Source: Bryoerythrophyllum caledonicum (lineage: Eukaryota > Streptophyta > Bryopsida > Pottiales > Pottiaceae). From it: a stretch of DNA of 64,000 nt. The notes under the pieces were generated by a model that worked only from the letters and a program-made list of their open reading frames with translations, made no database searches and was not told where the DNA came from. Of this stretch, positions 6,047-46,292 are shown piece after piece (positions within the stretch are counted from its first letter, which is position 1; the number at the start of each line of letters is the position of its first letter). The stretch is taken from the NCBI GenBank assembly GCA_963971425.1, contig OZ020521.1, positions 8,077,519-8,141,518 of the forward strand, read 5' to 3'. The translations under genes were made by a program, and so were the position numbers.

Positions 6047-6050
6047 CTCT

Positions 6051-6156
6051 TGTCGTGTAAAGAAAGATCGATAACCACAACAGATCGAGAGTCCTAACCA
6101 ACATCAAATAAACGAAAAACATACACTAAAACAAGTATACGTAATACACCCTCAAG
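6051..6156 (-). repeat. 106-bp segment A, outer copy at the element end
   Basis: It differs from the inner copy (6515-6620) by about one base. It forms the outermost part of the element next to the CTCT target duplication. Its outer end TGTCGTG (plus strand) pairs as an inverted terminal motif with GTGACA at 15964. Confidence 0.8.
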
Positions 6157-6512
6157 GAAAGATGTATGAATCACAAGTAGTCAAGCGTCTCGCACTCCAC
6201 GAAGGAAGAATCAACGAGTGCGAGTGGAACTAGAGAATGTAGAGTCTTTACTAATGACAAACCATCACTAACAAGCAAGGACTCACTAATCACTCTCTAA
6301 ACACACTCACAAAGCTTGACTTGACAAAGACGTCAAGTCAAGGACGTGTGCGGCGCTATACGCACACGCAAACAACCCTAAGTGGATGAAAATCATCCAC
6401 GGATGAAAACGGTGCGCCGCCGTTCGTCCCTAAACACACGTAGATTAGTAACAAACTAATCTACGCTAAAATCTACGATACGGAGAGACCCTCGACGCCA
6501 CGTCCCGTGACA
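6157..6512 (-). repeat. LTR core, left copy (3' LTR of the gypsy element)
   Basis: The 356-bp segment is identical by eye to 15609-15964. It starts TGTCACGGG on the minus strand and ends CATCTTTC. It is packed with perfect inverted repeats: 6189-6197/6216-6224, 6315-6325/6332-6342, 6346-6352/6361-6367, 6382-6389/6393-6400 and 6439-6449/6455-6465. It is flanked on both sides by copies of a 106-bp segment that the right LTR lacks. Confidence 0.85.
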
Positions 6513-6514
6513 GC

Positions 6515-6620
6515 TGTCGTGTAAAGAAAGATCGATAACCACAACAGATCGAGAGTCCTAACCAACATCAAATAAACGACAAACATACACTAAAACAAGT
6601 ATACGTAATACACCCTCAAG
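6515..6620 (-). repeat. 106-bp segment A, inner copy
   Basis: It lies between the LTR core (two bases, GC, apart) and a run of seven G on the minus strand (6623-6629), which may be the polypurine tract. The junction with the core reads GACA-GC-TGTC, like joined LTR ends. Confidence 0.8.
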
Positions 6621-6632
6621 TGCCCCCCCTAG
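6621..6632 (-). promoter_or_regulatory. Candidate polypurine tract of the gypsy element
   Basis: On the minus strand CTAGGGGGGGCA lies downstream of pol, directly before segment A. A G-rich tract at this place is where plus-strand priming usually starts. It is not adjacent to the TGTC end of the LTR core, which is unusual. Confidence 0.45.
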
Positions 6633-6935
6633 CGGATAAAGAGACCCTCTATCCAGCTAGGACCAAACAACACTAATAAGACTAAACGCCACGGTGATGT
6701 CGCTGCAACAACTGTACGCATCAAGCCAAAGATGTCGCCGTCATCGAATCAATAAGCATATGAAGAAGTAACAAAGAGATGGTAGGCCGGGTGCAATGTG
6801 AGCCCCATCTTTAATCGCCTTAGGCAATTTTATTGCCAATCCCTTGGTCAATCTCCACGTTGCCTATCCCTGAACCGAAACCAGGAACTCCAACTGGATG
6901 GCAACGCACCACACAATGACAAGTCTATGAGGAAT

Positions 6936-9900
6936 TCAAGCCGTTTCATCGGGTGAAACGTGACTCGAAGACCTCCGACAACGAGGGCAAGTCCAATCCC
7001 CGGACGGTAGAGTAGAAAGAGGCGGCGTCACGCAAGCCATATGCCAACCACGCTGGCAATGGTCACAAAGCAACATAGTAGCCGCACCCTTCTTCTCACC
7101 ACACACAAAACACGGAAGACCCTGTGGCACAACGGCCAACTCAGGATGCACGGAGCCATCAATGGGCAAATGGCAGGGCGCGCAGTTCTTGGAGAGCTCC
7201 CGACACTCCCGGCCATCTTTGCCTTCCAGCAACAAGATGCCACTGGGCAACACATCCTTCACACGAAGAATGGTGCGCCCGGCCTTGACGTCTAACGTCG
7301 TAGGCGCCTCACGTTGCAAATAAACGTAATCTCCAGTGGAAAAACGCCGCAACTGAGGTCGATAAGCACCGCTGCGAATGCGAGCGTACCGTAACGTGTC
7401 GCGATGCTGAGCGATAGATAAATTCTCTATGGCCATTGGCATGGCCCGCTTGAAGAACTCCGCCCGATCACGGAGACACTGGATCCAGACCTCTGGATCA
7501 TCCAAGTCCACAACTGGGGCCAATTTCTCCCGTACAGAACTGGGTAGAATCGGCTCCCGTCCGTACAACAACTGATACGGACTGAAAGCGGCCAAAGAGG
7601 CCTGCCGGCTAAACCGGTATCCCATGGCGATCCATGGTATCATCAGATCCCAATCACGGTGGCCACCCTGAAGTAATCCATACTTCCGTAGTCCACGCTT
7701 GACGGTCTGAACCACACGCTCCGCCAAACCGTCCGCTTCCGGATGATCCCTAGAAGTGGTACGGTGGTCAATCAAAGCCTTGGTGCATAAAGCCTCGAAA
7801 GCACCAAGGAACTCACGCCCTTGGTCAGTCAACACCTCAGCTGGGGCTCCAAAACGAGCGAGCACCCGGTCAAGGAATGCCATGGCCGCCAACTCCGAGG
7901 AGTTCTGTGGTAATGCCACAAGCTCAATCCACTTGCTGAAGTGCTCCACCATCACCAACACGTACTTGGCTCCACGTGGGGTGACAACAAGTGGCTCGGC
8001 AAAATCCAGAGACCAACGGTAGCCCAAACCCATGATGGGCAAAGGCTGCAACTGTGGTGACAATGTGTTGAAGCTGGATTTGACCCGATCACAGACTTCA
8101 CACCGTGAGACGTACATGGCCACCTGCTGATACATGCCGGTCCACCAATATTGACTGCGCAACATCGAATGAGTCCGCCGCACACCAAAATGACCAAGGT
8201 CTTCGTGTACTTGCCGTACCAACGAAGCCCTCTGATCCGGTCTGGGAACTATGCGCCTAGTTCCATCCGGCCACAACCGAAATAGAAGGCCGTTCTCCCA
8301 ACGGAACCTCGCTATCCGGTGTCCAACTCGATCGCGCTCCATGGCCGAAAGAGCGGGCGGAAGTGTGCCATGTTGCAGCTTGTGCAAGACTAGAACGTCT
8401 TCCCACACGTCGCTAACAACCTGGGCCTTGTCTGGTTCCTCATCCGCTGCCATATCAGGCAACGTCGATGTGGATCCAGACATCAATGTGAGGTAGGCTG
8501 CTGCATGCCACCCCGGGACTGACTCCCTGTCACAATCCCCATGCCACCTGGCACCAGTCAAATCCTCCTCCGATGGACTTGGATTGCGAGATAGACCATC
8601 CGCATCCAAGTTCGTGATGCCCGCCCGGTGTACAACCTCAAAATCATACTCCTGGAGCAACAAAGCCCACCTGGCAAGCTTGCCAGTAAGCTTGTCAGAC
8701 TCCATGAGCCACTTCAAAGGCTGGTGGTCGGTCACCAAAGTAAAACGTTGCCCATACAAGTAGGGCCTAAAATGAGCTATGGCCCAAACCGCGGCCAAGG
8801 CCTCCCCCTCATAGGACGAATAGTTGGACTCCGCGTTGTTGTTGCTCCTAGAAGCGAACGCCACAACGTACTCCCGTCTTTCATCATCCTTTTGAGTCAA
8901 CACGGCTCCCAATCCTACTGCACTCCAATCTGTGTGCAAGTGGAAAGGCCGTGTAGCATCTGGACGCCGCAGTACAGGCGCTGAACCGAGCTTGAGCTTC
9001 AAAGTAGCAAATGCCTGCTGCTGCTCCCGTCCCCAAGTCCATGGCTGATCCTTCCCCGTGAGAATAGTCAACGGCTTGGCAATCAAGCTGAAGTTCTTGA
9101 CAAACCGGCGATAGTAATTCGCCAGGCCAAGAAAAGCTCTGAGCCGTGACACGTCGATTGGGGCTGGGATCTTCTGCAGCGCGTCAACCTTCGCCTGCTG
9201 CACGCCAAGACCTCCTGGAACAATCATATGTCCCAAGTATGGCAACCGGTCATGGAAGAATTTGCATTTGCCATGGTGCAAGCGCAATCCCCACTGCCGT
9301 AACCTCTCAAACACCGCCTGAAGATGCCTCACATGCTCCTGTGGGCTGCTACTAAAAATGATAACATCATCAATGTAGCATCGGGCAAACGGTAAACCGG
9401 TCAACACCCGGTCCATCACCCTCTGAAACTCAGCGGGTGCGTTCTTGAGGCCAAATGGGAGAAACTTCCAATGGTAGAGCTGATCTCTCCCATCCAGATC
9501 AACTCCCCAGAACGCGGTCTTCACCCGGTCTTCCACCATCAATGGTAACTGGCGGTAACCGGACCGCAAATCCAGAGTACTAAATACTCTGGCGTGTCCC
9601 ACCGCATCAAACAACTCCTCTGGCGTGGGCATGGGATACCGATCCGACTTGGTCTTACGATTGACCGGCCTATAATCCCCACACATCCGCTTCTCCGTCC
9701 AGTTGCCAAAGATGTCCTTCTTCGATGGCATCACCGTGGCACAAGCGTACTCGCCGTTAGAAAGCTCAATCAAGCTGGCGTCCAACAACTCCTGACAACG
9801 AGTTCGAACCCCAACTTTCTCAGAGAGACTGAGCTTGTACGGTCGTCGGAAGATCGGGTGGTCATCCTCCAACTGAATGTGAATTGGTTTGCCTCTATAG

Positions 9901-10079
9901 CCCTCCAAATCATGGAGACTAAAGGCAAAACAACTACGATACGAACGTATAAACGCTCGTACCCTTCGTGCCTCGGCACCAGTAAGATGTGGCCCCAAAT
10001 CCAAAGGCCAATCATCAAACTCCGTGGTCTCCTTCTCCACCGTAGAAGACTCACCGCGTACCGGCACGGCCGGTGATTG
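6936..10079 (-). CDS. Pol: RT, RNase H, integrase, C-terminal PHD finger
   Basis: The frame opens right after the TAG at 10080-10082 and is in frame with the upstream region. No early ATG is seen (a GTG is at 10067), so it is probably made by stop-codon readthrough. Domains in order over about 1,047 codons: RT with YIDD; RNase H with HTDWSA and TDHQPLKW; integrase with an HHCC zinc-binding N-terminus (CEVCDRVK) and a DDE core (LDFAEP, LTDQGREF, EADGLAERV); a C-terminal PHD finger in the last 60 residues (CFVCGE, CDHCQRGWHMAC, WTCPRC; Cys4-His-Cys3). Chromoviruses usually carry a chromodomain here. A PHD finger reads histone H3 tails in other proteins, so it may direct integration to marked chromatin. 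All catalytic residues appear present. Confidence 0.93.
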   Translation of the reverse strand, partial: QSPAVPVRGESSTVEKETTEFDDWPLDLGPHLTGAEARRVRAFIRSYRSCFAFSLHDLEGYRGKPIHIQLEDDHPIFRRPYKLSLSEKVGVRTRCQELLDASLIELSNGEYACATVMPSKKDIFGNWTEKRMCGDYRPVNRKTKSDRYPMPTPEELFDAVGHARVFSTLDLRSGYRQLPLMVEDRVKTAFWGVDLDGRDQLYHWKFLPFGLKNAPAEFQRVMDRVLTGLPFARCYIDDVIIFSSSPQEHVRHLQAVFERLRQWGLRLHHGKCKFFHDRLPYLGHMIVPGGLGVQQAKVDALQKIPAPIDVSRLRAFLGLANYYRRFVKNFSLIAKPLTILTGKDQPWTWGREQQQAFATLKLKLGSAPVLRRPDATRPFHLHTDWSAVGLGAVLTQKDDERREYVVAFASRSNNNAESNYSSYEGEALAAVWAIAHFRPYLYGQRFTLVTDHQPLKWLMESDKLTGKLARWALLLQEYDFEVVHRAGITNLDADGLSRNPSPSEEDLTGARWHGDCDRESVPGWHAAAYLTLMSGSTSTLPDMAADEEPDKAQVVSDVWEDVLVLHKLQHGTLPPALSAMERDRVGHRIARFRWENGLLFRLWPDGTRRIVPRPDQRASLVRQVHEDLGHFGVRRTHSMLRSQYWWTGMYQQVAMYVSRCEVCDRVKSSFNTLSPQLQPLPIMGLGYRWSLDFAEPLVVTPRGAKYVLVMVEHFSKWIELVALPQNSSELAAMAFLDRVLARFGAPAEVLTDQGREFLGAFEALCTKALIDHRTTSRDHPEADGLAERVVQTVKRGLRKYGLLQGGHRDWDLMIPWIAMGYRFSRQASLAAFSPYQLLYGREPILPSSVREKLAPVVDLDDPEVWIQCLRDRAEFFKRAMPMAIENLSIAQHRDTLRYARIRSGAYRPQLRRFSTGDYVYLQREAPTTLDVKAGRTILRVKDVLPSGILLLEGKDGRECRELSKNCAPCHLPIDGSVHPELAVVPQGLPCFVCGEKKGAATMLLCDHCQRGWHMACVTPPLSTLPSGDWTCPRCRRSSSHVSPDETA

Positions 10080-10748
10080 CTACTTGGTAGCAGAGAGGGC
10101 ATTAATGCCCCCACATCCCTCACTCACAGGATCTATAGAAAATCCCGTGTCGTGATGATAAAACTGGGAAAAGATATCCCGAGCATCCTCACGGCCAAAG
10201 TCCTCTGCCAAGGCTGCAAAGACACGCTGAGCACGAAGCTCTTCAGCTGCATGCCTCTTCAAACGAAAAAACAACTCCGCTTCCTCGATCTCTGTGAGAT
10301 GTGGCACCGCTGCCCCCTGACCATCAGAGTCTGCCCCCAGCACGCGTGGATGGTCACTCGAACGGCGTTGAGCGGCGAAACAGAGGCCACATATCCAAAC
10401 AAGGGTGTTGAGGTCAATGGCTTGACCCAATAAATAACGGCGTTGGCCCTCAGAGATATCCGGTGCGCCGGTGGTGCCTGTCAAAAAGCCCATCGCCCGC
10501 TCCCTCTCATCGGCAGAAGGCTCCTCGAAAGTTTGGGAAGAAGAATCCCAAACCATGCCTGGACCGCGTGACCTGAAGGCAAAAGAGCCTGGATAGCACA
10601 TCAAAGTGGGAAATGCCCCCCGAGTGAAACCAACGCGGTTGACCACCGCCAATGGTGGCTCATCATCCTTCGTAACCTCCGTGGAAACACGGTGGTCGTC
10701 TAAAATGTCATCGACCTCACGGCGCACGGGCCGTTGCACTTGAGCAAG
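10080..10748 (-). CDS. DNMT C-terminal part (motifs IX-X) and linker to pol
   Basis: The frame is continuous with the methyltransferase upstream but separated from it by a TGA at 10749-10751. It ends at a TAG at 10080-10082. Its first 120 or so codons match the end of DNMT3-type catalytic domains: a FPTLMCY segment, then GMVWD, ERAMGF, and YLLGQAIDL, equivalent to the target-recognition region and motif X helix. The following roughly 100 residues are charged and unassigned. The ATG-like start of this frame is a GTG, so translation most likely enters by readthrough. The TAG is followed by CAATCA, matching the CARYYA rule for TMV-type leaky stops. Confidence 0.8.
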   Translation of the reverse strand, partial: LAQVQRPVRREVDDILDDHRVSTEVTKDDEPPLAVVNRVGFTRGAFPTLMCYPGSFAFRSRGPGMVWDSSSQTFEEPSADERERAMGFLTGTTGAPDISEGQRRYLLGQAIDLNTLVWICGLCFAAQRRSSDHPRVLGADSDGQGAAVPHLTEIEEAELFFRLKRHAAEELRAQRVFAALAEDFGREDARDIFSQFYHHDTGFSIDPVSEGCGGINALSATK

Positions 10749-13625
10749 TCAATAAGTGAGCGTCGTGGATGATGCCATGTTGGTCCAAATCCAACGTGGC
10801 CGATGGGCGTAAGATCCCAACGCTGCGGCATCAACAAACGTAGGGGGACCAAGAAGGTGATGGATGTACGCCCCATCCTCACGCACTTTCGTTCGTGTAT
10901 CCCCCAATGGGGGTACATTCTCAAAAATGTACCCCGGTGGTGTCCATTGGTGGGTAATCCACCACTGGACGAGCCTAAGCAAATCCGCAAAGAGACCCGA
11001 CCGTGGATCATCCAAGCCACGTCCACCTCCCGCCCGTGAATGGCCTTGGCAAGGCCATCCGGCAATCACCAAGTCCACGTGACCTAACCGGCAAAGATCA
11101 TCCTCACTGATCAACGTCACATCACGTGGCAACTTGCCAAAACATCCCCGAATGGCAGAAGGTGGTAACTGCTCCGGGTACAACGCCAGGAGACGCTGAA
11201 TGTGGTGGTGAGCAACTCGATTGGCTGCAAAGCCACTATCGACGTGAATGTACCGGCGTACCTTGAGCCCAGCTTCTAACACAGCCGCGAGCCCCGTACC
11301 GATACCGGCAAATAGCTCCACGAGGGTAATACCCTCATCTGGTGGTCGCCACTGAATTGTACGAGCCAACAACGGAATAGAAGAGTCCACTAAGAGATGT
11401 GGAGCATTCAAAGCATCCACAATCTCCCGACTTCGACGGGTAAGCTCCAACTGAGTTCCCCAAGGCAGAACTGGATCCTTGCAATGACGTGCAGGGATCT
11501 GTAGTGGTATGTACTCCCGTGATTCCGCTACCCCCGACATAAAAGCATATGTCTCCTCCAAAAGCGTAGAACCACATGGCAAATCAGAAGCCAACGCACT
11601 GCACCCAAACATAGCGTCCACCGTGGAAGTCACCGCGCTAGCTGCGAAGACAACCGGAATGAGCTCCTTTCTGCCATCACCGGCAGACCACCCAGGCCTA
11701 ATCCAGGCCTCCTCCGTCCAATTATCCACTCCAAAACCGAGAGGATAAAGTGCTTGCTGACCCACCAGAATGTCATAGTTGGTGGCACCAGTCACAGCAC
11801 ACTGAAGGGATACGTGGGAGAACAATGGACCAGATCCGACACCGAACATCAACTGTAACGGATGTCGGGTGTACCCCATGGCCTTCTCCGTGCCTCCAAC
11901 CGATGTAACAATCGTAAATGGGCAAGGCTCAAGGTCCGAAGCACCTAGACCCAAATCCTGGGCTAGCTGCTTGCCAATCATCACTGGCTGAGCCCCGGAG
12001 TCCAACATAACACGTAGGGGGGTAGCTCGAGTGGAGTTGCCATCCGTACGGCCTACCACCATGATTCCATCGTCATTCACCAAACGTACCACCCCTGGAC
12101 GCACACTGCGTCGCTCCCGTGCCGACCGGGCTGCAACATCAGACAAATAAGCCACTCCAGAGATCAAGGCCCGATCCCTGGACGACTGCTCCATAGGTGC
12201 GGAAGTGGCATTGGCCTCAAACGCGGAAATAGCCTCCGCCGCCAACTTGGCCCGCATTGCCACCAAATCCTCCTCGGTGGGTGGAGCCGTCACCGCCTGC
12301 GACACCTCCAATGAAGGCATGGGCACCTTGCCCTCCAACATACTACCTGCCAAGTGGAATACACCAGATGGTCGAAAATCCGGTGTCAGAAAATCCACAC
12401 CGGCAAACACGGGCAACTGCAACACCTTATACGCCAAGGTGTGTGCGGCATCCCCATGAGTGGAAGAAAGCGGTGGGACCGGGGGCGGAGTGGGAGAGGC
12501 AGTAGAAATAGCCGCATCCGCGATGCCAAAAGAAAGTGGTAGCCGGGACTGACCAATGTGGTCCGGCAAACCCGTGTGGCGTGGACGGCCACTACTAACC
12601 GGCACAGAGGATGAAGGTGCCACTACTTGTGCAATAGTCTGAGCACGAGTGGCCACTGCTGCCACCACCTCCCCTGAAGCGCCATACAAGTAGCGGTCTA
12701 GGGCTGAAGATGAGCCCTGACCCCTCGATGGAGGCCGTGTCTCTGCCACTTGCCCCAAAGAAGCCATCGCACTCATCTGCTTCTTCAGCTCCGCTAGTTC
12801 AGCCTGCAGTGTCTTCACTGCATCCGATCCAACAGCTGAAGACCCTGGGCGCTTCTCTGGATGAAGAGAAAAGCAGTTCTCATTAGTGTGGCCAATCTTG
12901 CCACAGTGAGAACATGTCACAAACTTGTTCCCCTTACCCCCAGCCTTCTCTGCAGGCTTGGCTGCCTCAGTCTTGGACTTGGCCTTCACCGCCCCTGCCC
13001 CCTTCTTCTTGGAACAGTTGGGGTCCCCCTTGGTGTGACCAGCCTCCCCACAAGCCCAACAATGCACAACCTTTTCAGGTTGTGCCTCCGCCAAGCTACC
13101 GGTGGCGGTGGCAAGCTTCTTGGGCTTGGGAGCCTCTAATAGGGACGTCACTAAATCAGTGGCCTCGCTCACGCCCAGTGCTCTATCGAGCGCTTCCACC
13201 TCGGCGAACGCCTGAGCCAAAGTGGCGTTGCCATGATACCGAAAAAGAAGATGTGGACTAATCAATTCCACCATCCTCTTGTCCAACTTGGAGATGAAGA
13301 TCTTCACCAGTTGGCGCTCCGTGAACACATCACCAGCCTCAGCTGACAACCGTGCCAACCGGGTATACATGGTGCGTGGGGTATCCTCCTTCTCCCGGCG
13401 GAAATCCTGGATGCGCTGCATCTGATCACGCCTGAAGCCCCCGTACTCCACCTCTAAATGCGCCATGAACTGCGCTAGAGGATCAAAGGCAGGCGGATCG
13501 CCAACCGCCATCAATGCCGCACGTGTGGCAATGGCCAAACGGGACATGGCCCCCATGCCAACCCGTTCGCCCACAATGGCAACACCCTTGCCCTGGAGTC
13601 CTCCCCGAAGAGACTCTCTTCCACC
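10749..13625 (-). CDS. Gag (capsid and zinc knuckles), protease and DNMT3-like methyltransferase N-part
   Basis: The frame is open from about 13625, and a GTG lies at 13574. Residues counted from 13574: capsid-type Gag about 25-140; zinc knuckles CWACGEAGHT (180) and CSHCGKIGHTNENC (221-234); aspartic protease with LDSGA (524-528) and YDILVGQQAL (600-609); cytosine-5 DNA methyltransferase from about 748. The methyltransferase shows motif I ELFAGIGTG (753-761), motif IV GWPCQGHS with the catalytic Cys at 842, motif VI FENVP (884-888) and motif VIII RPRWIWTN (925-932). Motif order is linear, as in DNMT3 and unlike the rearranged DRMs. A TGA at 10749-10751 falls between motifs VIII and IX, and the domain resumes in the same frame. 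The catalytic residues seen are intact. Confidence 0.9.
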   Translation of the reverse strand, partial: GGRESLRGGLQGKGVAIVGERVGMGAMSRLAIATRAALMAVGDPPAFDPLAQFMAHLEVEYGGFRRDQMQRIQDFRREKEDTPRTMYTRLARLSAEAGDVFTERQLVKIFISKLDKRMVELISPHLLFRYHGNATLAQAFAEVEALDRALGVSEATDLVTSLLEAPKPKKLATATGSLAEAQPEKVVHCWACGEAGHTKGDPNCSKKKGAGAVKAKSKTEAAKPAEKAGGKGNKFVTCSHCGKIGHTNENCFSLHPEKRPGSSAVGSDAVKTLQAELAELKKQMSAMASLGQVAETRPPSRGQGSSSALDRYLYGASGEVVAAVATRAQTIAQVVAPSSSVPVSSGRPRHTGLPDHIGQSRLPLSFGIADAAISTASPTPPPVPPLSSTHGDAAHTLAYKVLQLPVFAGVDFLTPDFRPSGVFHLAGSMLEGKVPMPSLEVSQAVTAPPTEEDLVAMRAKLAAEAISAFEANATSAPMEQSSRDRALISGVAYLSDVAARSARERRSVRPGVVRLVNDDGIMVVGRTDGNSTRATPLRVMLDSGAQPVMIGKQLAQDLGLGASDLEPCPFTIVTSVGGTEKAMGYTRHPLQLMFGVGSGPLFSHVSLQCAVTGATNYDILVGQQALYPLGFGVDNWTEEAWIRPGWSAGDGRKELIPVVFAASAVTSTVDAMFGCSALASDLPCGSTLLEETYAFMSGVAESREYIPLQIPARHCKDPVLPWGTQLELTRRSREIVDALNAPHLLVDSSIPLLARTIQWRPPDEGITLVELFAGIGTGLAAVLEAGLKVRRYIHVDSGFAANRVAHHHIQRLLALYPEQLPPSAIRGCFGKLPRDVTLISEDDLCRLGHVDLVIAGWPCQGHSRAGGGRGLDDPRSGLFADLLRLVQWWITHQWTPPGYIFENVPPLGDTRTKVREDGAYIHHLLGPPTFVDAAALGSYAHRPRWIWTNMASSTTLTY

Positions 13626-14119
13626 TTAGGCTCCTCGGTGGAAGTCGGCAGTTGGGCAACTGCACTCTCCTTGAGCGCAGTCACCAACTCCACACGCTGG
13701 CGCCAGTACTCCTCAACCGGACGTAACTGTGCCTCGTGCTGCGTAGTCCACTTCCCGTACGATTGGAGCGCTTCTAGCTCCAAATGCTGGGGCAAAAGCT
13801 CGAACGCATACCAGTCGTTAAACGACGGCGTCCGCTGGCGCTTCTCTTTCATCCAGGTTTGGAATCGGAGCCGCCAATCGGGTAGGGAGATGCCCCCAGC
13901 CCGTCCCGAGAACTTGTCTCGCACGACATGACGGAGATCGTCCTCCATGTCGTCAAACGTGCCCACGCCCCAGACCCGAAGCCTACGATCGGTATCCAAC
14001 GCCGAAACAGGCTCAAAAGCCTCGTCTGTATCCGACCCTGGCCCAAAATCTGTGGTGGAAGCACTCTCCGAGTGGTCTGGTGAGGGGGAGCGGTAATACC
14101 GACTCCGGGTACTCACCAT
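13511..14119 (-). CDS. Gag, N-terminal part
   Basis: I chose the ATG at 14119 (MVSTRSRYYRS); nine bases upstream lies another in-frame start-like codon. The product is acidic at first, then has a helical Gag-like stretch (GRAGGISLPDWRLRFQTW). The frame ends with a TGA at 13511, overlapping the next frame, which continues the capsid sequence in the -1 frame. The switch probably falls near 13590 (GEDS to GKGVAIV). I see no canonical XXXYYYZ heptamer there, and a one-base deletion in a CTCC run would also explain it. Confidence 0.75.
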   Translation of the reverse strand: MVSTRSRYYRSPSPDHSESASTTDFGPGSDTDEAFEPVSALDTDRRLRVWGVGTFDDMEDDLRHVVRDKFSGRAGGISLPDWRLRFQTWMKEKRQRTPSFNDWYAFELLPQHLELEALQSYGKWTTQHEAQLRPVEEYWRQRVELVTALKESAVAQLPTSTEEPKVEESLFGEDSRARVLPLWANGLAWGPCPVWPLPHVRH

Positions 14120-15608
14120 AAACAACAACCACCTCGGGACCTATCTACGGGTACTATCTAAAAGGTAAGGGTACGAACGGGCAACCTGCACCTGCAAAAT
14201 CACCAAACTTTGTGGTTCACCGGTCATTACCTCCGGCTAGCACAGGTCCAACCACAACCCCCCACATAGAAAGGTCTTGCCGGCCATAAATCCGACTTCA
14301 CCCCTACGGTACCCTATCACAAACTGGAACAACAAGAAATGGGGCCACCGGAAAACACCGGCAACAAGCCCGCAACACGGGGGAGGTACCGCACAAGAAT
14401 CCAAAAATCAAAACCGGATCCTCTCCCCCAACAACATAAAAGCAGGAAAATGAAAGAGACAGCGCCACTAGCACACGCCTGCAGTGGATGCCTCAAAGTC
14501 GCAAACCTGCAAATCAAAGAGAAACACTAAAAGTGTTCCCCCTAACGTCTAAAACTAAGGGAGTAGTGGGGATTGACCGTGGTGTTTAAAAACACTATCC
14601 ATCCAATGAAATCACATACATTGGTGGGTAATCACGACAAACGCCAAACTAATGCTAAAATTAGGTCAAATGGCGAAAATCCTAACTATAAGCATAAATG
14701 TCACTCACATCCGAGTAACACTGCCTTTGAAATCTACTCCCAAAGTTTAGCACTATCTTTTTTTTTTTTTTTATAGATCACAAAACATGTGATTGTTTTC
14801 GGCCCTCGCGAAAAAACTAGCAAAATATTTTTTTTTTGATAAACCAATTTTTTCTTATACCACTAGTCTTAGAATTTCTTCACGAATCCAAATCCGTCGT
14901 CGAAATCTCAAAATACCGAAAATTGCAAAATCTAAAAATCTAACATCCAACTCCAGGGACTTCTGAAAATCTGCTAGAAAACCAATGGTTTAGGGTACCG
15001 CGGCGCGCAATTGGGTACCTCTGGTTATGGTGCAATTGGATGCTGCCGCCTCTTGGCCCCCTTGCAATTGTCACGTGGCGCCCACGAGAGTCTTCCCCCA
15101 GCCCTTGCTCCCTACGATCCCGATGATGTGCTCGTTGTAGGTCCCGCCTGCATGCCGGCGGTCAAGTCAACCCAGGCTGTCGTTTTTGAGACTTTCCCCT
15201 CCACCGTACTCGTGGATAGGACTGTAGGCTGCAGTGTAAGGCCTCGAGGCTCGTGGTGGTCTTCTAGTCTTGAATTAACCCATGATCAAACCCTGATTTC
15301 CTGGGTTGTTCCTCGCGACTTTCACATCATCAGCTCCCATGCCCAGCGACCAGAGGTCGCATGTCTCTTCCCACTCCGACCAGCGGTCGCCCGCGGGGGT
15401 GAGTTTGAAACACCCTCCAGGTCCAGAGAGTCTCAAAATCCAAAAATTCAAACTCTAACTTCAAGACACTAGTTTTTGCATAACCTCGCACAATATCAAT
15501 AGTGCTAGAAATACCCACTCTTCCTCTACTCTTCTCTCCTTCCTTCACAAGCTCCTTAAACGTGAAAATGATAAGAAAATAAGGAATTATGAGAGGTCTT
15601 TGTCAAGT
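14120..15608 (-). other. Long 5' leader of the gypsy element
   Basis: About 1.5 kb lies between the 5' LTR core and Gag. No primer-binding site starting TGG follows the LTR core; the sequence there is CTTGACAAAG. A 153-codon frame exists on the opposite strand (15011-15472), but it has no recognisable motif and is probably chance. There is a poly-T/A stretch at about 14757-14775. Confidence 0.5.
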
Positions 15609-15964
15609 GAAAGATGTATGAATCACAAGTAGTCAAGCGTCTCGCACTCCACGAAGGAAGAATCAACGAGTGCGAGTGGAACTAGAGAATGTAGAGTCTT
15701 TACTAATGACAAACCATCACTAACAAGCAAGGACTCACTAATCACTCTCTAAACACACTCACAAAGCTTGACTTGACAAAGACGTCAAGTCAAGGACGTG
15801 TGCGGCGCTATACGCACACGCAAACAACCCTAAGTGGATGAAAATCATCCACGGATGAAAACGGTGCGCCGCCGTTCGTCCCTAAACACACGTAGATTAG
15901 TAACAAACTAATCTACGCTAAAATCTACGATACGGAGAGACCCTCGACGCCACGTCCCGTGACA
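15609..15964 (-). repeat. LTR core, right copy (5' LTR of the gypsy element)
   Basis: It is identical by eye to 6157-6512. It begins TGTCACGGG on the minus strand and is followed on the plus side by the CTCT target duplication. It lacks the 106-bp segment A seen twice at the other end. Confidence 0.85.
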
Positions 15965-15968
15965 CTCT

Positions 15969-18052: not shown

Positions 18053-19869
18053 TTATTCAGGGTACACCATCTTCTTGGACACGCCGCCGTCTACCACAAA
18101 CTCTTGGCCAGTGAGGAACCCCGCGCGCTGCTCATCGCACAAGAACAAACACATCTCCACCACGTCCTGCGCCACGCCCACTCGTCCCACCGGATGCCAC
18201 GCGTGGTCTTCCGGCCGCAGCGCCTCCTCGCCCGCTTCGTCCGTGTTGATCCACCCCGGCAACACCGTGTTCACCCGCACCTTCCCTGCCAAACTGATCG
18301 CCTGCATGCCACCACAACGAAGAATCAATCAAGTGGAATTAGAGACTCATGCAGAACAAGTTGACACCAGTTTCGACCTGTGAATGCGTGAGCCCACAAA
18401 GGCCGGCCTTCGAGGCGCTGTAGCCTGCTGTGTCTGGCTCGCTCTGGTGCGCCCGCGTGCTGGAGATGTGAAGGATGCTGGCGTTTCCAGGTGGCATGTG
18501 CGGTACCACGAAGTGTGATAGCGCGTAGGCCCCGACCAGGTTTACTGCAATTGTGTCGGTGAACTCCTTCAACGGATCATCCGAAGCGCCACTGTGAGGA
18601 AGCTTGGCTGGCAGGCAGGCACACATACACGTATGATTCAAACATCTAGAACCTGGAAACCCTAGCATGTGATGCAGCTTATGATTGAGAATACCATACC
18701 AGCGCCTTCAACCCTAAACCCTAAACCCTGTCTGATGAAGCTTATGATTGAGAACACGCTTGAATCATTCTACAAAGCGCCTTATAGAACGTATGACACA
18801 TGTACACGTCTAGATCAGCACTATGATTCAAACATCTATAACCTGGAAACCCTAATATGTGATGCAGCTTATTGATTGAGAATACCATACCAGCGCCTTA
18901 AACCCTAAACCCCTTCTGATGAAGCTTATGATTGCGAACACGCTTAAATCATTCTATAAAGCGCCTTATAGGACGTATGACACATACACGTCTATCAGCA
19001 CTATGATTCAAACGACTAGAACCTGGAAACCCTAATGTGTGATGCTAATGATTGAGAATACCATACCAGCGCCTTAAACCCTCAACCCTATATGATGCTT
19101 ATGATTGAGAACACGAAGCTTGAATCATACTGTAAACGCGTTAAACCCTATCTGATGATTGAGAACAGGTTTGAATCATTCTAGCCTGAAATCTAAACCC
19201 TAACATTAGCTTAAATTCTGATTGAGAACACGCATGAATTATCATACCAGCGTTGTTGACGAGGACGTGAATCTTGTCGCCATAGCGCTGCACTGCTTCG
19301 TTGACGATGCGCTCGGCCTCTGTGACGACCCCCACATCCGCTTGCACGAAGTGGAAATTCACGCCACCGATTCTCTCGTCGTCGTCTTGCGGGGGCTTTA
19401 CAATATCCACTCCCACGACACTGTAGCCCTGCACACGCATTGGAGGTTATATCCAATAATCAAGAGGTGCGTTGAAATTACGGGACACTGTGTCCGGTGA
19501 TGTTCAAGCAGCCCCAGGTTATGAAAAGAACCAGATTATCGCCTTGCAGTTCATAGCAAACATTCCCAAGAGACTACTCACCTGCTTCATGAATCCATAC
19601 ACGAGATGACGCCCAATGCCATGAGGCCGCGCCACGCCCGTGATGATAGCACACCTCTTCTTCTCCTCAGATCTAGCTGCTTCCATTCTCACCGGTGCAC
19701 GAATGGAAGAAGCTGCTCCAGGACGAGTCTCAAAACTATATCTCAAACTGGGATCACCACCCCATAATCCCAGATTCAAGGTGGTGAAGCTCCGACTTAA
19801 CCCTTGGCTTAAACAGGATCCAGCAAGTGAACGGATGCTCCTACGGAAAACTGCAACCTGGAAGGACAT
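18053..19869 (-). CDS. Short-chain dehydrogenase/reductase (SDR), probably organelle-targeted
   Basis: Four exons with GT-AG junctions: 19869-19582, 19428-19248, 18607-18378 and 18301-18053. Together they give 948 nt in frame (315 residues). The classical SDR features are TGVARPHGIG (cofactor binding), NNAA (in place of NNAG), a catalytic Ser in HISSTRA and YSASK. The C-terminus has the usual GQEFVVDGG loop. The Rossmann fold starts about 75 residues in. Before it stands an Arg/Ser-rich stretch beginning MSFQVAVFRRSIRS, which looks like a mitochondrial or plastid targeting peptide. The substrate is unknown. The gene is divergent from PHYLLO, with about 1.6 kb between start codons, and both upstream regions carry the same GGGTCG-rich motif. 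Intron 2 is filled with tandem repeats. Confidence 0.9.
18640..19247 (-). repeat. Tandem repeats in SDR intron 2, with copies of the splice donor
   Basis: Three or four imperfect units of about 170 bp occur. Each contains GCGCTGGTATGG on the minus strand (at about 18703, 18885 and 19063), followed by TATTCTCAATCAT. Each also carries AAACCCTA telomere-like stretches and CTTATGATTGAGAA. The real exon-2 donor at 19248 (GCTG/GTATG) has the same context, so the repeats appear to have grown from the exon-intron junction. Confidence 0.7.
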
Positions 19870-34448: not shown

Positions 34449-37400
34449 TTATGGAGGGGGGTTCGAAGCGTCAGGGAGGGGTTGGTTGTTTTCTAGTTTT
34501 CGTTTATGTAGGAGTATCGACATAGCATGTTGAGTTGCAATGATGTTAATATTTGAAAAAGTGGTTTTGATTGAAGTGATGGGGATTTTAAATGTTTCTT
34601 CAAGGGTTGTCATTGAGGGAATGAAGGTGGTGGCTCTAGCACCCGCGGTGATGACAATGAGGGGGTCTACTTTCCATCCTAGTGCTTGAATATCGTCAAG
34701 TAGTGGTTGGTATTTATTTGTTTTGTTTGCAATAGTGTCCGGAGAGAATCTATCGTTACAATATGTGAATTCAATAAATTGGATGGTGAGACTAGGGTCA
34801 ATGTGGTTTGGTGGGGGGTCTTTGTATGAAAGTCCTCTAACACATAGTAGGTCCGGTTTGAATCTTGCATTACAGTGGCATTTTTGAGTATGACAGATGC
34901 AAGGCAATAGCCAAGGAGGGACCATATTTTCTTGTGGGTTGTCATTAAAGGTTCCGGTATTCATGAGAATGAAACACCGGGATTTGGTTGATGATATAAG
35001 TAGTTTACGAATAGCCCATACGGCTTTGTTATGTCTTTTGACTATTAGTGAGTGTATATGGGGGTTTTGGCATTTGAGTAAGACATGTAGCCATGTGTCT
35101 GGGTCCGTGGTGTTGCAAATTGGACATGTAATTGTAGGAAATCTTTCTATTCCAAAGAAGAGTTGTTTGCGGGCATTACCCATGTATTGTTCGGTACGGA
35201 ATTTGATTAGGCATGTGATTTGTGGATCTGTTATAATGGGGTTTTTCCAAAAATTGTTGGACCATACGTTGTGAATGTTTGGGTTGCCAGTCCATTTATC
35301 AATATTGGGGAAGTTTTCTGTGAGTTTTTCTAGGTTATTTATAAGATCATGTTTTTTGAGGTATTTGTCCAAGAATTGTATAGGGCCTTTATCGGGAGTT
35401 TCGCCCATAGAGGGCCATTCATATCTATGGAAGTAATATGGGGTGGCATAGGCGTGTTCGTATGGGTGTTCGGCATTCTTGTGGGTTTTTTCTCTTCCTT
35501 TCTTTGCTAGTTTGTCGGCTTGTTCATTACCGTCGATATTAGCATGGGCTCGGACTTTGTGGAGTGTAGTAATCTGTGTACGGTTTTGGAGCATTGCAAC
35601 CATAGATGTAAGGATAGTTTTATCCGGGTGACTGTTGTGTAAAGTAGGATGTTTAATGTGTGTATTAAGGAGATATAATACATTTACGCAATCTGTAAAA
35701 ATGTGAGCCGGTTCATTTGGGTATTGAGTTGTGATTATTTTAAGGGTTTTATGTATAGCCATCATTTCGGCTCTTAGAATATTTTGGAGTCCATGCAGTC
35801 TTTTGCTTGATTTAATTTGTTTGGTTGGATTATATATCCCATAACCGGCTTTTTCTCGGTGCCAATGTGCCGGGCTTACTTCAGTTGGTTCTTTAAAGGA
35901 GCCGTCCGTGTAGTAGCTAAAGTTGGGGTCAAATTTAAGGTCTGTATTAATTTGGTAGTAGGAGAGGGGGAGGCTTAGTTTGGTAATTGGTGTTGTGGGG
36001 ATGTTTGTGTGGGGGGTTTTAGACCATTTTTTATTGCGGTTTACACGGGTTGAGATGGGTGTGGGAGAGGCAGTTGCGGTGTGTACCTTGTTAATGTTTA
36101 GATTTTTTGCTATCAAAGTGAGATGAGTGAGGTTTTCTAGATTGCCTATTTCTCGAGTTTGGTGATGTATGCATAGGATACGTAGGGTTGCTGGTTCAAG
36201 GCGGGGTGTTTGTATATGCGGCGGTATAGTGGGTTCTTTGTAAGTCATAGAGTCAGCTTCAAATAGTACTATGATGTGTGAGTCCGGGAATGGGCCTAAG
36301 TGTGGATTGGAGTTGTGGTACCAATGAGTGTCGGGAGTGATAATAATGGTGATGTTGTGGTCAGGGTCATTGTTTGCCGCTAAGCGTGCCCAATGTATTG
36401 CTTGTTGTGTTTCTTCTTCATTGTGAGGGTGTGCAAGGCCTATTCCGCTCCACCTATAATCAAAAGCTTTTCCAAGAGAACCAAAGATCTTATCCCGTTC
36501 GAATGGGGAGTAGAATTTTGAGATTTTTGTGGAGCATGTAACGGGGGATGAAAAGTATGAATGTGTTATATTTAGAGATGTAATAAGGTAGTCTAAGATA
36601 GGATTGGGTATTGTGTAGTGTGCATTTTTAAGGGGTTCATTTTTGGGTATTCGGTAGTTATATCTTTGGTATAGCCAAACAATTTCGGTTTCAAATGATT
36701 GCGGTATTGGTTCAATGTTAATGGGGGTTTGTATTGCGTCGTGATATTGGTTCCACAGCCATTGTAGTCTAGCGAGTGGTATGGTTATTAGATGTCTCCC
36801 ATTATCTTTGTATATGTCGGCATTATCTTGTTGTATTTTGATTGTATTTGTTTGTGCGAGGATGTCAATTTCAGGGTTGCATTCGGTTGTAAAGATGTTA
36901 AGGAGGGGGATAATAAGAGGTGGCGTGACAAATCTTCTATCTCGAATTTGTGCTTGAGGGTGGTGTAATTGTATGATATTTAGGTAGTAATTGTTTTGAG
37001 TTCTAAGGTAGTATTGTGTGAGGATTTCGGTGTTATGTAGGGAAGTATTTGGGTTATGCCAAGGGAAAAGATTTCTTTGTGGGAGCCATTTGGCGTAGGT
37101 GGTGTTGTTGTCGGTCCAATGGCATAGGTATGACGTATATTGTTTGTTTATGTTGTAGGAGTCAATGTACTTTCTATGTTTGTGTGCAGTTATGTTGTTT
37201 ATTGGGTGTATGGAGGGATTTTTTAATATATGTGGTGGGGGAGTATATGGTCGTGAATGTGGCGGGTTTGGAGGGATTAGTGGGAGGTTTATATTGTGGT
37301 GGGTGTTATTGTGATCGATGATGTATGAGTCCTTAAGTGTGTACGGTATGGCGTGGGTGGTGCAAGGGTTGGGGCATATAGGGAGGCATGGAGGGTGACA

Positions 37401-39152
37401 AAATAATTGTTTAGCAATATTTAGTGCACTTTTTATTAATTTATGGGGGGTGCCGTAGAATATTTTGTAGCTCTTGTCGTCCATAAGGTGTGTTCCATTT
37501 GGTAGTGTAATTTGTTTCAGGTCGGTAATGTTTGCAGAGAAAAGTTTTTGTAGGAGTTTGGCGGATAATTGTCGGTCAAGTCTTGGGAGATTATGTATTT
37601 CATTAGCCCAATTTTGTTCGAGTGGCGCGGGGCCTAATAGGAAATCTTCTAATGTGCTGTTTAGAAATGTTTGACCTTCTGTTTTGAGTAGAAAGAGTGT
37701 GCGGGTAATGGGAGACCGAAGACAGTCAGTTTTTTTAAGTCTTTGGAGGTATTGTGCTCCTCCATAGATGGCAAGGATGTGCCGAAGGAGTCCACTATAG
37801 ATTAGTCCTAGTCGTCCCTTGTCGTTAAGTGCATTCTGGAGTTGTTCTCCGATGCAACGTAGATAGGCATTTTTTAGGGAAAAAGCTTCTAATCCAAATA
37901 GTTCGTGGGGGAGTTGTGTTATGACATTGGGAGTACAATTAGGGAGTCCGCATACTTTCTTTTGTATGGCTATGATTTTTTTATCAAGTTTGTCTATGGC
38001 GGGCATGGAATAAGGTACCGCATAGAAACTATAGGAGATACCCGGTCGTATGACGGTATCAATCATTTTTATTTTTTGTTGCAATGTGGCCGGACATAGT
38101 GTAAGTTCCTTGCATTGTTTAATAAGTTTAGTAGTAGTAGCGTGAATTTGATTTTTCCATTTTAACGATGGGACTAGGTTTATTCCAAGGTATATGTAGG
38201 GTTGGTTTTGGTTGAGAACCGGAATTGGTTGGTTACGATATTGGATATTGGTGGCTTGAATGAGGGCTTTGAAGGCGGTCGGATTTATTTTTGATTTGTT
38301 TGGGCATCCAGCTATGGCACATTTTTGGACCCCAAGTTCCAGCCCTGTCCATAGACAAAATTTGTCTATTTTGTCTAATTGAATTTGGAGTGATTTAAGG
38401 TGGCCGGAGATGGCTGCTAGGTCGTCGGCATATGCGGCCGAGTTTACGGTGATTTTTGAGGTGCCAAATGTGTAACCATTATCGCCTCTTTGAAGCCATC
38501 TCAATAAAGGTTCTAGAAAAATAATAAAGAGATATGGGCTCAATGTATCGCCTTGGATGGTACCCCGTTGGATGGAGATAGGGCGTGTTTTACCAAAGAA
38601 TTCTCCGATGTATGTAGTGGTAGATTGAGAATATATATTACCAACCAATGTGACTGCGTCTTCCAGGTACCCAAGATCACTCATTATGGCTAGTAATCGA
38701 GGATGGTCAATGGAACCAAATGCGTTTTTAAAGTCGATGTAGAGTATGTAAATATCTTTATTGGTGAATTTTGCATCTTCGAGTGCGGCAATGAGGGTTT
38801 GAAGTTGCCGTGTGGTACTTCTCTCGGCTCTAAACCCTTCTTGGCTTTCGTGTAATATTTGGTGTGTTTCCCCGTAAGCCGATAATATTGATGTTACTGT
38901 GCTAGTATATAATTTATAAATGGTGTTAGCTAAGGCAATAGGTCGGTGGTTAGGTAGCTCAGATGGGTTTCCTTTTTTGTATAATAAGATTGTTAGACTT
39001 GTTTTCCAAGATGTGGGGATGGATTTTTGTTTATAACAGTGAAGGAAGAATAATGATAAAAGGTCGTGGAATCTTAGGGGCATGTTTTTTAGGATTGAGT
39101 TAGGTATATGATCCGGGCCACAGGCTTTGTTGGTTCCAAATTTTTTAGACAC
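34449..39152 (-). CDS. LINE ORF2 C-part: RT, RNase H, CCHC finger, restriction-like endonuclease
   Basis: The 1567-codon frame begins in the overlap with the endonuclease frame. RT starts at once (NKACGPDHIPN) and has SQEGFRAERST, YIDFKNAFGSIDH, GTIQGDTLSPYLF and YADD (about residue 238). RNase H at about 1079-1205 has YTDGSFKE, RAEMMAI, FTDCVNV and RAHANIDGNEQADKLA, giving the D-E-D-D set. A zinc finger CPICNTTD...HVLLKC follows at about 1341. The C-terminus has KPDLLCVRG (about 1431), FIEFTYCNDRF (1462) and NKTNKYQPLL (1484), which fits the PD-(D/E)xT...KxxKY pattern of R2-type restriction-like endonucleases. The frame lies -1 relative to the upstream endonuclease frame. Confidence 0.92.
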   Translation of the reverse strand: MSKKFGTNKACGPDHIPNSILKNMPLRFHDLLSLFFLHCYKQKSIPTSWKTSLTILLYKKGNPSELPNHRPIALANTIYKLYTSTVTSILSAYGETHQILHESQEGFRAERSTTRQLQTLIAALEDAKFTNKDIYILYIDFKNAFGSIDHPRLLAIMSDLGYLEDAVTLVGNIYSQSTTTYIGEFFGKTRPISIQRGTIQGDTLSPYLFIIFLEPLLRWLQRGDNGYTFGTSKITVNSAAYADDLAAISGHLKSLQIQLDKIDKFCLWTGLELGVQKCAIAGCPNKSKINPTAFKALIQATNIQYRNQPIPVLNQNQPYIYLGINLVPSLKWKNQIHATTTKLIKQCKELTLCPATLQQKIKMIDTVIRPGISYSFYAVPYSMPAIDKLDKKIIAIQKKVCGLPNCTPNVITQLPHELFGLEAFSLKNAYLRCIGEQLQNALNDKGRLGLIYSGLLRHILAIYGGAQYLQRLKKTDCLRSPITRTLFLLKTEGQTFLNSTLEDFLLGPAPLEQNWANEIHNLPRLDRQLSAKLLQKLFSANITDLKQITLPNGTHLMDDKSYKIFYGTPHKLIKSALNIAKQLFCHPPCLPICPNPCTTHAIPYTLKDSYIIDHNNTHHNINLPLIPPNPPHSRPYTPPPHILKNPSIHPINNITAHKHRKYIDSYNINKQYTSYLCHWTDNNTTYAKWLPQRNLFPWHNPNTSLHNTEILTQYYLRTQNNYYLNIIQLHHPQAQIRDRRFVTPPLIIPLLNIFTTECNPEIDILAQTNTIKIQQDNADIYKDNGRHLITIPLARLQWLWNQYHDAIQTPINIEPIPQSFETEIVWLYQRYNYRIPKNEPLKNAHYTIPNPILDYLITSLNITHSYFSSPVTCSTKISKFYSPFERDKIFGSLGKAFDYRWSGIGLAHPHNEEETQQAIHWARLAANNDPDHNITIIITPDTHWYHNSNPHLGPFPDSHIIVLFEADSMTYKEPTIPPHIQTPRLEPATLRILCIHHQTREIGNLENLTHLTLIAKNLNINKVHTATASPTPISTRVNRNKKWSKTPHTNIPTTPITKLSLPLSYYQINTDLKFDPNFSYYTDGSFKEPTEVSPAHWHREKAGYGIYNPTKQIKSSKRLHGLQNILRAEMMAIHKTLKIITTQYPNEPAHIFTDCVNVLYLLNTHIKHPTLHNSHPDKTILTSMVAMLQNRTQITTLHKVRAHANIDGNEQADKLAKKGREKTHKNAEHPYEHAYATPYYFHRYEWPSMGETPDKGPIQFLDKYLKKHDLINNLEKLTENFPNIDKWTGNPNIHNVWSNNFWKNPIITDPQITCLIKFRTEQYMGNARKQLFFGIERFPTITCPICNTTDPDTWLHVLLKCQNPHIHSLIVKRHNKAVWAIRKLLISSTKSRCFILMNTGTFNDNPQENMVPPWLLPCICHTQKCHCNARFKPDLLCVRGLSYKDPPPNHIDPSLTIQFIEFTYCNDRFSPDTIANKTNKYQPLLDDIQALGWKVDPLIVITAGARATTFIPSMTTLEETFKIPITSIKTTFSNINIIATQHAMSILLHKRKLENNQPLPDASNPPP

Positions 39153-41482: not shown

Positions 41483-41530
41483 TGGGCCGGGGTTAGTTTC
41501 TATGTCTCCGCAAAGTATAATTAGTAGTTT
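41483..41530 (-). other. 2A-type ribosome-skipping motif
   Basis: In the frame of the endonuclease, just upstream of its ATG, the translation is LLIILCGDIETNPGP. This fits the D(V/I)ExNPGP consensus exactly, with the usual hydrophobic run before it. 2A peptides make the ribosome skip the Gly-Pro bond. They occur in picornaviruses and, upstream of the endonuclease, in several LINE groups. The frame upstream reads the CAA array as poly-Gln and is open back to a TAA at 42077-42079. Confidence 0.85.
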
Positions 41531-41573
41531 TAAATGAGTAATGTTTTTGGTTTTTAGAGGGAGGGGTGTAGAG

Positions 41574-42074
<501 letters not shown>

Positions 42075-42224
42075 GTTTAGTAGTATATAAATATACTAAG
42101 GTTTTGGTTTTAGTTTTAGTTTTGTGTGAATTTTTATAATGTTTTTTCCGGTTTTTATTATTATTTATTGTAGTATATATATATACTATTATATTTAGAT
42201 TTATTGCAGCGTTGTTTATCAATA

Positions 42225-43805: not shown

Positions 43806-44147
43806 ACTGTAGCATTCAAAACAAAGTGTGTTAATTGACTTGCATCGTATTATCTCACTGTAACCCCTTATCCTCTTGGTCTTAACTTCTCCCCCCAACA
43901 TACGTTGAGGGCTTATTGAAGTTAAGATTATCAAGAAGGGGTGAAAAGTATTAGCAAAGGTGATACATAAACTACTAACTACACACTTTCCTAGGGGTTG
44001 GCGGTGAGAGAAATCAGTATAGTGATATACTTTGACTTTTGCACATACACACACACGAGAGGTGCCAAAATAATGATCACCTCTCCAAGTAACTGGCTTA
44101 GATATTAAAAGTTGTTTACATGCCTTTGGGGTTGCATAATAATCCCA

Positions 44148-45989: not shown

Positions 45990-46292
45990 ATGGAGCTGGT
46001 GTCTGCGCAGTAGGGCAATGTAAGAGGGTTTGAGAGTGGAGTGAGGGCACGATATATACCTGGTGTTGAGTTGTTGTTTGATGGATGTGGTAGTCGTTGA
46101 TGAACGTCTTTGTTTTAGGGTTTTTGGGTGTTTAGGGTTGGCTTCTTCGTGGAGCCGTTGGGTTGTAGCTTGCTGATTGTGCTGACTTGGATGACGGCTC
46201 AGATCTTGCTCTTCTGTAGATTCGACGTTTTTGTGGTTATGGCGGCTAGGGCTTTGTCTGTATGGTTGTGGTTGGTCCTTCTTCCCTGTGTG

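Follow-up and report, generated by a model that had tools for sequence, protein, structure and literature searches.

Why retrotransposons that carry a DNA methyltransferase (DNMT) keep this enzyme is a question raised here by a gypsy-type element in the genome of Bryoerythrophyllum caledonicum. The element spans 6051-15964 on the minus strand of a 64-kb stretch of contig OZ020521.1 (positions 8,077,519 to 8,141,518; "the window" below means this whole stretch of analysed DNA). An initial annotation had placed, within 6936-13625, a DNMT3-like C5 methyltransferase between protease and reverse transcriptase (RT) and a PHD finger at the integrase C-terminus. That span proved too short, since the full element covers 6051-15964 and is flanked by a 4-bp target duplication. 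We consider it fairly probable, taken as a whole, that this element belongs to a large Ty3/gypsy family whose Gag polyprotein includes a captured DNMT3-type methyltransferase and whose integrase ends in a PHD finger, and that the copy in the window inserted recently and has since been broken.

A gypsy family with a methyltransferase and a PHD finger

Four open reading frames (ORFs) were scanned with Pfam. The frame 6936-10067(-) matches RVT_1, RNase H, Integrase_H2C2, rve and PHD, the last over the full length of the profile (1-47/47, E 2.1e-10), which confirms the full Cys4-His-Cys3 finger claimed for the integrase C-terminus. No chromodomain match was obtained at E 0.1 in the four ORFs, and the finger was found, as annotated, where chromoviruses carry their chromodomain. 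The frame 10749-13625(-) matches DNA_methylase (E 1.7e-10, profile positions 4-119 of 324), aspartic protease families (best E 1.2e-4, slightly below the Pfam curated cut-off) and, weakly, a zinc knuckle. Chance as the source of the domain matches is excluded by the E-values, the copy number and the homologues described below. The DNMT does lie between protease and RT by position, but it does not share one open frame with RT, from which a TAG (10080-10082) separates it. A DNMT inside an open Pol frame was rejected for the window family; the conserved TAG splits gag-protease-DNMT from RT-RNase H-integrase-PHD, and the gene plan is one ORF for Gag, protease and DNMT (ORF1), closed by a TAG of leaky type, followed in frame by RT, RNase H, integrase and PHD (ORF2).

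The annotation had suggested a search for other copies, and in the host genome (437 Mb, 894 contigs) the element has at least 100 relatives, with the combination of DNMT and PHD common to many. The best 48 of 3524 candidates were scored in the ORF1 search (all at least 89% identical), the best 124 of 4844 in the integrase-PHD search (all at least 82% identical) and the best 150 of 1821 in the search with the DNMT C-part. The last PHD ligand is passed by 121/124 scored integrase-PHD places. A DNMT C-part stands at the expected distance at 82 of these 124 places, and at 64 of the best 75; it stands at another distance, within 20 kb, at 11/124, and the remaining 31/124 have none among the scored DNMTs, although they may have an unscored one. 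Several copies have a 1353-aa ORF1 (gag-protease-DNMT) without stop, and many copies are broken, the window copy among them. The combination of DNMT and PHD is a family trait, and a one-off capture of the two domains is ruled out by copy number and co-occurrence.

The class of the DNMT was taken from one natural copy, L004, and both the sequence and the fold of this copy bear out the DNMT3-like assignment. Its closest PDB sequences are DNMT3C/3B/3A (E ~1e-8), with further matches to HaeIII (2e-5), HhaI (9e-5), the plant DNA methyltransferase 4onj (0.01) and DRM2 (0.1). The AlphaFold model (mean pLDDT 81) matched DNMT3 structures in 50/50 Foldseek matches listed, with a TM score of 0.72-0.81 on the target (chains of catalytic-domain size) and 0.55-0.63 on the query. 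The enzyme is thus DNMT3-type by sequence and predicted fold. In the window copy motifs I (FAGIG), IV (PCQ), VI (ENV) and VIII are readable, and the target-recognition/X part runs on in frame in 10083-10739, without a Pfam match on its own; the motif order I, IV, VI, VIII, X is not rearranged. An alignment of 28 relatives has an invariant PCQ Pro, with PCQ Cys and Gln and the motif VI Glu at least 90% conserved. Among 118 homologues with long matches, motif IV reads PCQ in 76, ECQ in 23 and SCQ in 1, and simple patterns for the other DNMT motifs are present in 64 to 104.

Constraint was measured among copies as the ratio of nonsynonymous to synonymous differences (pN/pS), with up to 20 copies for ORF1 domains and up to 11 for ORF2 domains, window included; rows were dropped for indels (gag 2, DNMT_C 3, RT, RNase H and integrase 1 each), as was one incomplete DNMT_C row. 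The ratio is 0.15 for the first part of the DNMT (DNMT_N; bootstrap 0.10-0.22) and 0.26 for the second part (DNMT_C; 0.15-0.45), compared with 0.09 for RT, 0.16 for integrase, 0.30 for gag, 0.31 for protease and 0.51 for the control linker (0.34-0.82). The bootstrap fraction at or above the linker is 0.0 for DNMT_N and 0.03 for DNMT_C. Since its values of 0.15-0.26 are near theirs, the constraint on the DNMT is comparable to that on integrase or gag, and by these sequence comparisons the DNMT is under purifying selection.

A second gypsy family with DNMT and PHD is present in the same genome, in the one copy examined (L042, L044-L046; C7:14453800-14467600), whose DNMT is 56% and ORF2 64% identical to those of the window family. 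The profile range 44-157 of the second family recurs in many rows of the genome's PF00145 list. A window-family retrotransposon with a 94% identical DNMT also makes up a 9.3-kb contig (L041, CADCWO010000201.1) of a cyanobacterial metagenome assembly; this contig is eukaryotic contamination, and P0172, labelled an Obscuribacterales methylase, looks like the same kind of contamination. Among viral contigs, 13 stretches fit the search pattern and none is a relative.

The window copy itself is defective. Its DNMT is cut by an in-frame TGA (10749-10751) ahead of the target-recognition part, and this TGA is absent from L004 and other copies with the 1353-aa frame. Its gag switches frame between 13511 and 13625, unlike other copies, in which the gag N-part and ORF1 are continuous. 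Its insertion appears recent because its two B repeats are identical (0/356 differences) and its two A repeats differ at 1/106 positions. The features of the window copy are as follows.

6047-6050, no strand: target site duplication CTCT on the element's 3' side, matching 15965-15968
6051-6156, minus: terminal repeat A, outer copy, 106 nt, ending ...CACGACA; 1 difference from inner A
6157-6512, minus: terminal repeat B, 3' copy, 356 nt, starting TGTCACGG; identical to 5' B
6513-6514, minus: GC dinucleotide separating inner A from B, at the centre of the palindrome GACA-GC-TGTC
6515-6620, minus: repeat A, inner copy
6621-6629, minus: polypurine tract GGGGGGG plus CA, adjoining inner A
6936-10079, minus: ORF2, RT-RNase H-integrase-PHD, 1047 codons after the TAG
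6978-7112, minus: PHD finger (C4HC3) at the integrase C-terminus (Pfam)
7740-8240, minus: integrase zinc-binding domain and DDE core, with D, D and E present (Pfam)
8646-9035, minus: RNase H domain (Pfam)
9222-9698, minus: reverse transcriptase, YIDD (Pfam)
10074-10082, minus: TAG CAATCA, stop in a UAG-CAR-YYA readthrough-type context
10296-11363, minus: DNMT3-type C5 methyltransferase domain, limits approximate, broken by a stop here; class from the natural copy
10749-10751, minus: in-frame TGA inside the DNMT
10749-13625, minus: gag C-part, CCHC knuckles, protease and DNMT N-part (ORF1 frame)
13511-14128, minus: gag N-part, out of frame with ORF1 in this copy
15595-15608, minus: presumed primer site ACTTGACAAAGACC, directly after 5' B
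15609-15964, minus: terminal repeat B, 5' copy, with no A after it; identical to 3' B
15771-15783, minus: GTCTTTGTCAAGT within B, perfect 13-nt complement of the primer site
15965-15968, no strand: target site duplication on the element's 5' side

Split repeats and the route of integration

Read along the element, the arrangement is B (356 nt), coding region, A (106 nt), GC, B, A. Ends were examined in 11 copies, window included, one of which (L027) is a piece falling short of the 5' end. The 3' order A-GC-B-A occurs in 11/11 copies (in L039 the beginning of inner A could not be located), and the GC between inner A and B is present in all 11 and in the second-family copy. The 5' B stands without A in 10/10 copies having that end, and a 4-bp target duplication flanks 9/10 copies with both ends, the window copy included. 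The form B-coding-A was not found among the 11 copies. The second-family copy has the same split-repeat plan (B 367 nt, A 230 nt, target duplication AGGA); its A and B match those of the window family at a best E of 0.025, and both share the centre CACGACA-GC-TGTCA. A simple model of two long terminal repeats (LTRs) was discarded, as the 300-nt repeat covers no more than a portion of B, and A occupies different positions at the two ends.

The element combines traits of two groups. As in Ty3/gypsy elements, RT-RNase H is followed by a DDE integrase, with protease upstream (its match being slightly below the Pfam cut-off), and the ends are TG...CA with a target duplication within the 4-6 bp range; the two identical full-length terminal LTRs of that group are absent. 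The split direct repeats are those of DIRS/Ngaro elements, which have a tyrosine recombinase and no DDE integrase; the window element has rve and H2C2 instead, and no phage-integrase (tyrosine recombinase) family is among the Pfam matches of the four ORFs.

Reverse transcription may start on the element's own RNA. The primer site after 5' B is a perfect 13-nt complement of B nucleotides 182-194 in the window copy, and the 13-nt match recurs in 9/9 other copies with a 5' end. L041 retains it through a compensatory change of G-C to A-T, and the second-family copy has a match of 12 nt. Primer sites for tRNA as a rule begin with TGG; the 14 nt after B do not, and a tRNA primer site was rejected in favour of the self-complement found there. 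Tf1/Sushi and Tcn1 elements have normal LTRs and are not known to carry a DNMT or a PHD. They share with the window element a primer site complementary to their own RNA, according to the available passages of PMC6317226.

The element RNA would prime its own reverse transcription and leave A-GC-B at both cDNA ends, which would then be offset by about 106 nt from the integrase site at the A/B border. The palindrome CACGACA-GC-TGTCACG within one of the LTRs would be the point where the integrase opens a two-LTR circle, and the TG...CA ends of the opened circle would be joined to the target. The repeat order suggests that B-coding-A-GC-B-A is most simply reached when a DDE integrase cuts a two-LTR circle at one of its A-GC-B sites. 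The circle cleavage site of foamy virus is the LTR-LTR joint. The window-element site would differ in being internal to the LTR, at a distance of about 106 nt from the end set by RT. The likeness is that the foamy virus integrase also cleaves two-LTR circles, as stated in the part of PMC1180852 at hand.

Two observations weigh against the circle route. Copy L021 has no target duplication. A genome pattern for B|A joints with exact ends gave 29/31 without an extra base and 2/31 with one, a count that demanded intact ends, so that joints missing bases are invisible to it; such exactness fits blunt end-joining only if the ends are very uniform. The 127-nt end overlap of contig L041 was set aside as proof of a real circle, since k-mer assembly of repeats can explain it. 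At C202:2079-2566 two B|A joints stand 464 nt apart, so that one copy has an additional A-GC-B unit at its 3' end.

The same exact joints would fit another origin of the split repeats, either RT strand switching to a linear B-int-A-GC-B-A or a DIRS-like tyrosine-recombinase process, which we regard as unlikely if still a serious alternative. The repeat order equals that of DIRS, and the same is said of the KnitGypsy-Dnmt3 element in the part of PMC5890265 that we draw on (Fig. 4 legend). The window family nevertheless encodes a DDE integrase, no tyrosine recombinase is among its Pfam matches and the palindrome with central GC is also found in the second family. DIRS elements are not known to make a target duplication, unlike the 9/10 copies here. 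Beyond cleavage of a circle by the DDE integrase, a wider proposal is given a little short of an even chance: an old green-plant gypsy lineage with particle-borne DNMT3, integrase PHD, self-priming and leaky stop, which would be unique among DDE-integrase retroelements in integrating from a circle through an LTR-internal site, its ends for RT and for integration permanently out of phase.

Possible roles of the methyltransferase, the stop codon and the PHD finger

From its place in ORF1 the DNMT is probably produced together with Gag and in larger amounts than RT and integrase. With Gag-protease-DNMT made in such surplus, the enzyme would enter the particle, where it may act on freshly made cDNA or on the chromatin into which the element inserts. 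The suggestion of the initial annotation that the DNMT hides or silences the new copy is not supported, and several points count against self-methylation of this kind. The CpG observed/expected ratio is 0.84 in the element and 0.59-0.78 in four other stretches of the window, so that any long-term CpG self-methylation left no depletion. Singleton C-to-T changes per site among copies are highest at CHG (0.17), followed by CG (0.11) and CHH (0.06), with all singletons at A/T sites at 0.03; this excess is a better fit to host silencing than to a CG-type DNMT3. Finally, a K. nitens DNMT of the same kind showed no activity in yeast, a result called inconclusive by its authors in the passages available from PMC5890265. 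Inserted copies seem, from these substitutions, to be methylated by the host, and the replicating lineage is without CG depletion.

The undepleted CpG of the element would also suit a DNMT whose target is not its own cDNA but the host genome or, in trans, chromatin, for instance to silence competitors or limit harm; the Gag-side position would yield much of such a protein. We judge this quite unlikely, as a Gag-linked protein would be expected in particles and not free in the nucleus.

The expected excess of DNMT over RT depends on the stop between them. TAG CAATCA before RT is identical in 19/20 loci, window included, the site not having been found in L016 among the 20 examined; L041 has it as well. 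In the second-family copy ORF1 ends in TAG CAACCA, followed in frame by RT-integrase-PHD. The CAR-YYA context after a stop directs readthrough in tobacco mosaic virus, according to the portion of PMC2194720 consulted, and the UAG-CAR-YYA rule fits the stop and six next bases in both families. This context follows 5 of 1606 TAG triplets on both window strands, the ORF1 stop counted, and the RNA fold 3' of the stop has a z of -2.95 in the window copy. From its context, the TAG is probably a leaky, readthrough-type stop. Against this, the second-family ORF2 has a Met at codon 24, and for the Candida retrotransposon Tca2 the route past the gag stop is left open in the accessible text of PMC2194720. 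That the TAG is not read through, with ORF2 expressed by splicing or internal initiation, is still improbable: the context fits in both families, the frame is unchanged across the TAG, and the first Met of the window ORF2 is codon 117, inside RT.

For the PHD finger, the C4HC3 ligands are intact in 123/125 homologues with a PHD match. Its closest sequences are those of PHF12, CHD4, KDM5 proteins, PHF21A and UHRF1, with ATXR5 and BAZ2 among the matches listed. The Foldseek query was a model of the integrase tail plus PHD, and the single-finger rows alone were used; these are UHRF1, BAZ2, PHF21A and ATXR5, at 0.9-1.5 A, the first three of them at 1.1-1.5 A. The top rows, PHF1/MTF2, were uninformative (two-domain span, rmsd near 14, model pTM 0.40). 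Several of the single-finger matches are structures titled as complexes with unmodified H3, and we take the KDM5, UHRF1, BAZ2 and PHF21A fingers together to be readers of unmodified H3K4. PHD fingers of the ING/BPTF type, which read H3K4me3, have an aromatic residue two before the His. This residue is Gly in the window copy and in 120/125 homologues; because of it the ING-type cage is absent, and a role as H3K4me3 reader is not supported. It is plausible that the PHD steers insertion; standing where chromoviruses have their chromodomain, it would help to choose chromatin.

Other observations count against this reading. The PHD pN/pS of 0.52 has a bootstrap range of 0.14-1.88 in 11 copies, one of which has a stop in the finger, and is an underpowered estimate from few differences. 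The loop before the third Cys, GEKKGAATMLL, is non-acidic here and net acidic in 95/125 homologues, so that the finger may bind another ligand than KDM5-type fingers do. The initial annotation had held that copies lacking the two domains, or free of constraint on them, would mean a capture without function; the DNMT is clear of this objection, and for the PHD, with its underpowered ratio, the answer lies in deep conservation. That both domains are chance captures without purpose, the element spreading by RT and integrase alone, agrees with the many broken copies and with a PHD ratio indistinguishable from that of the linker, but is very improbable and for the DNMT largely refuted by the selection data, given a first DNMT part near integrase, both parts below the linker, a DNMT in its expected place in 64 of the 75 best copies, and the joint presence of DNMT and integrase-PHD in the second family and in homologues of other green lineages.

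Known relatives, neighbouring features and meaning

Homologues in the DNMT search come from Marchantia, Closterium, Sphagnum and many metagenome contigs, and those of the integrase-PHD, among the best 120 of 149, from Volvox, Haematococcus, Tetrabaena, Astrephomene and Marchantia. They have two gene orders, protease-DNMT-RT and RNase H-DNMT-integrase-PHD; in P0023 and some others the DNMT is in one frame with Pol, unlike the window family. A rapid DNMT tree, built from 95 of the 106 eligible rows and covering retroelement and metagenome DNMTs only, placed the 25 rows of the second order together with 8 whose order is uncertain in a single group of 33 (SH-aLRT 99), with several long branches.

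DNMT-carrying retrotransposons have been reported from two algal groups. The nearest known element, compared by description only, is KnitGypsy-Dnmt3 of Klebsormidium nitens (de Mendoza et al. 2018, PMC5890265). In the passages we cite it shares the gypsy domain set, a polyprotein that includes a Dnmt3-related DNMT, purifying selection acting on this enzyme and a repeat structure described as DIRS-like (PMC5890265, Fig. 4 legend). It differs in that "PHD" occurs 0 times in the main text of PMC5890265, whose figures or supplements could show one, and in that no readthrough, self-priming or target duplication is described for it in the parts of this paper used here. No Klebsormidium is among the named homologues listed in the DNMT and integrase-PHD searches. 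SymbioDIRS-Dnmt3 of Symbiodinium, on the same partial view of PMC5890265, likewise has a Dnmt3-type DNMT in a split-repeat retrotransposon, and this DNMT methylated CG in yeast; it differs in its tyrosine recombinase, DIRS RT and dinoflagellate host, and is treated there as an independent capture. Chromoviruses share a chromatin-reader-type domain at the integrase C-terminus, and the window element differs from them in having a PHD instead of a chromodomain, plus DNMT and split repeats. "PHD" occurs 0 times in the main text of the plant LTR classification PMC6317226, and no prior report of a gypsy element with an integrase PHD was found in the open literature, figures, supplements and closed papers lying outside the search.

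The window also contains a LINE-like element at 34449-47294 (-), in which one ORF joins RVT_1, PCIF1_WW (PF12237, E 1.5e-9, cap methyltransferase family) and RNase H and the next ORF encodes an APE-type endonuclease; the pattern [NDS]PP[FYW] was not found in its RT ORF. GC skew is strong at 34-42 kb. A Tc1/mariner-type transposase ORF (DDE_3, HTH_Tnp_Tc3_2) lies at 61946-63037 (+), and repeated units containing CCCTAAACCCTAAACCC, telomere-like repeats within the chromosome, at 18624-19055 (+). Elsewhere in the genome, a chromosome-sized contig carries an intronless, bacterial-looking C5 methyltransferase ORF (L043, C14:16016300-16017400; 218 bits to PF00145, profile 3-322 of 324), which is either a gene transfer or a misassembly.

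A Gag-side DNMT in two families, with DNMTs 56% identical, predicts a particle-borne enzyme, and this can be tested. If the circle route is true, the combination of split repeats and target duplications would, as far as we know, provide the first strong example of a DDE integrase that normally works on a circular substrate. The PHD of the integrase is a reader-type domain in the same element as the methyltransferase, which makes the writing and the reading of marks separable for study, and the high copy number in one genome eases the profiling of methylation and insertion.

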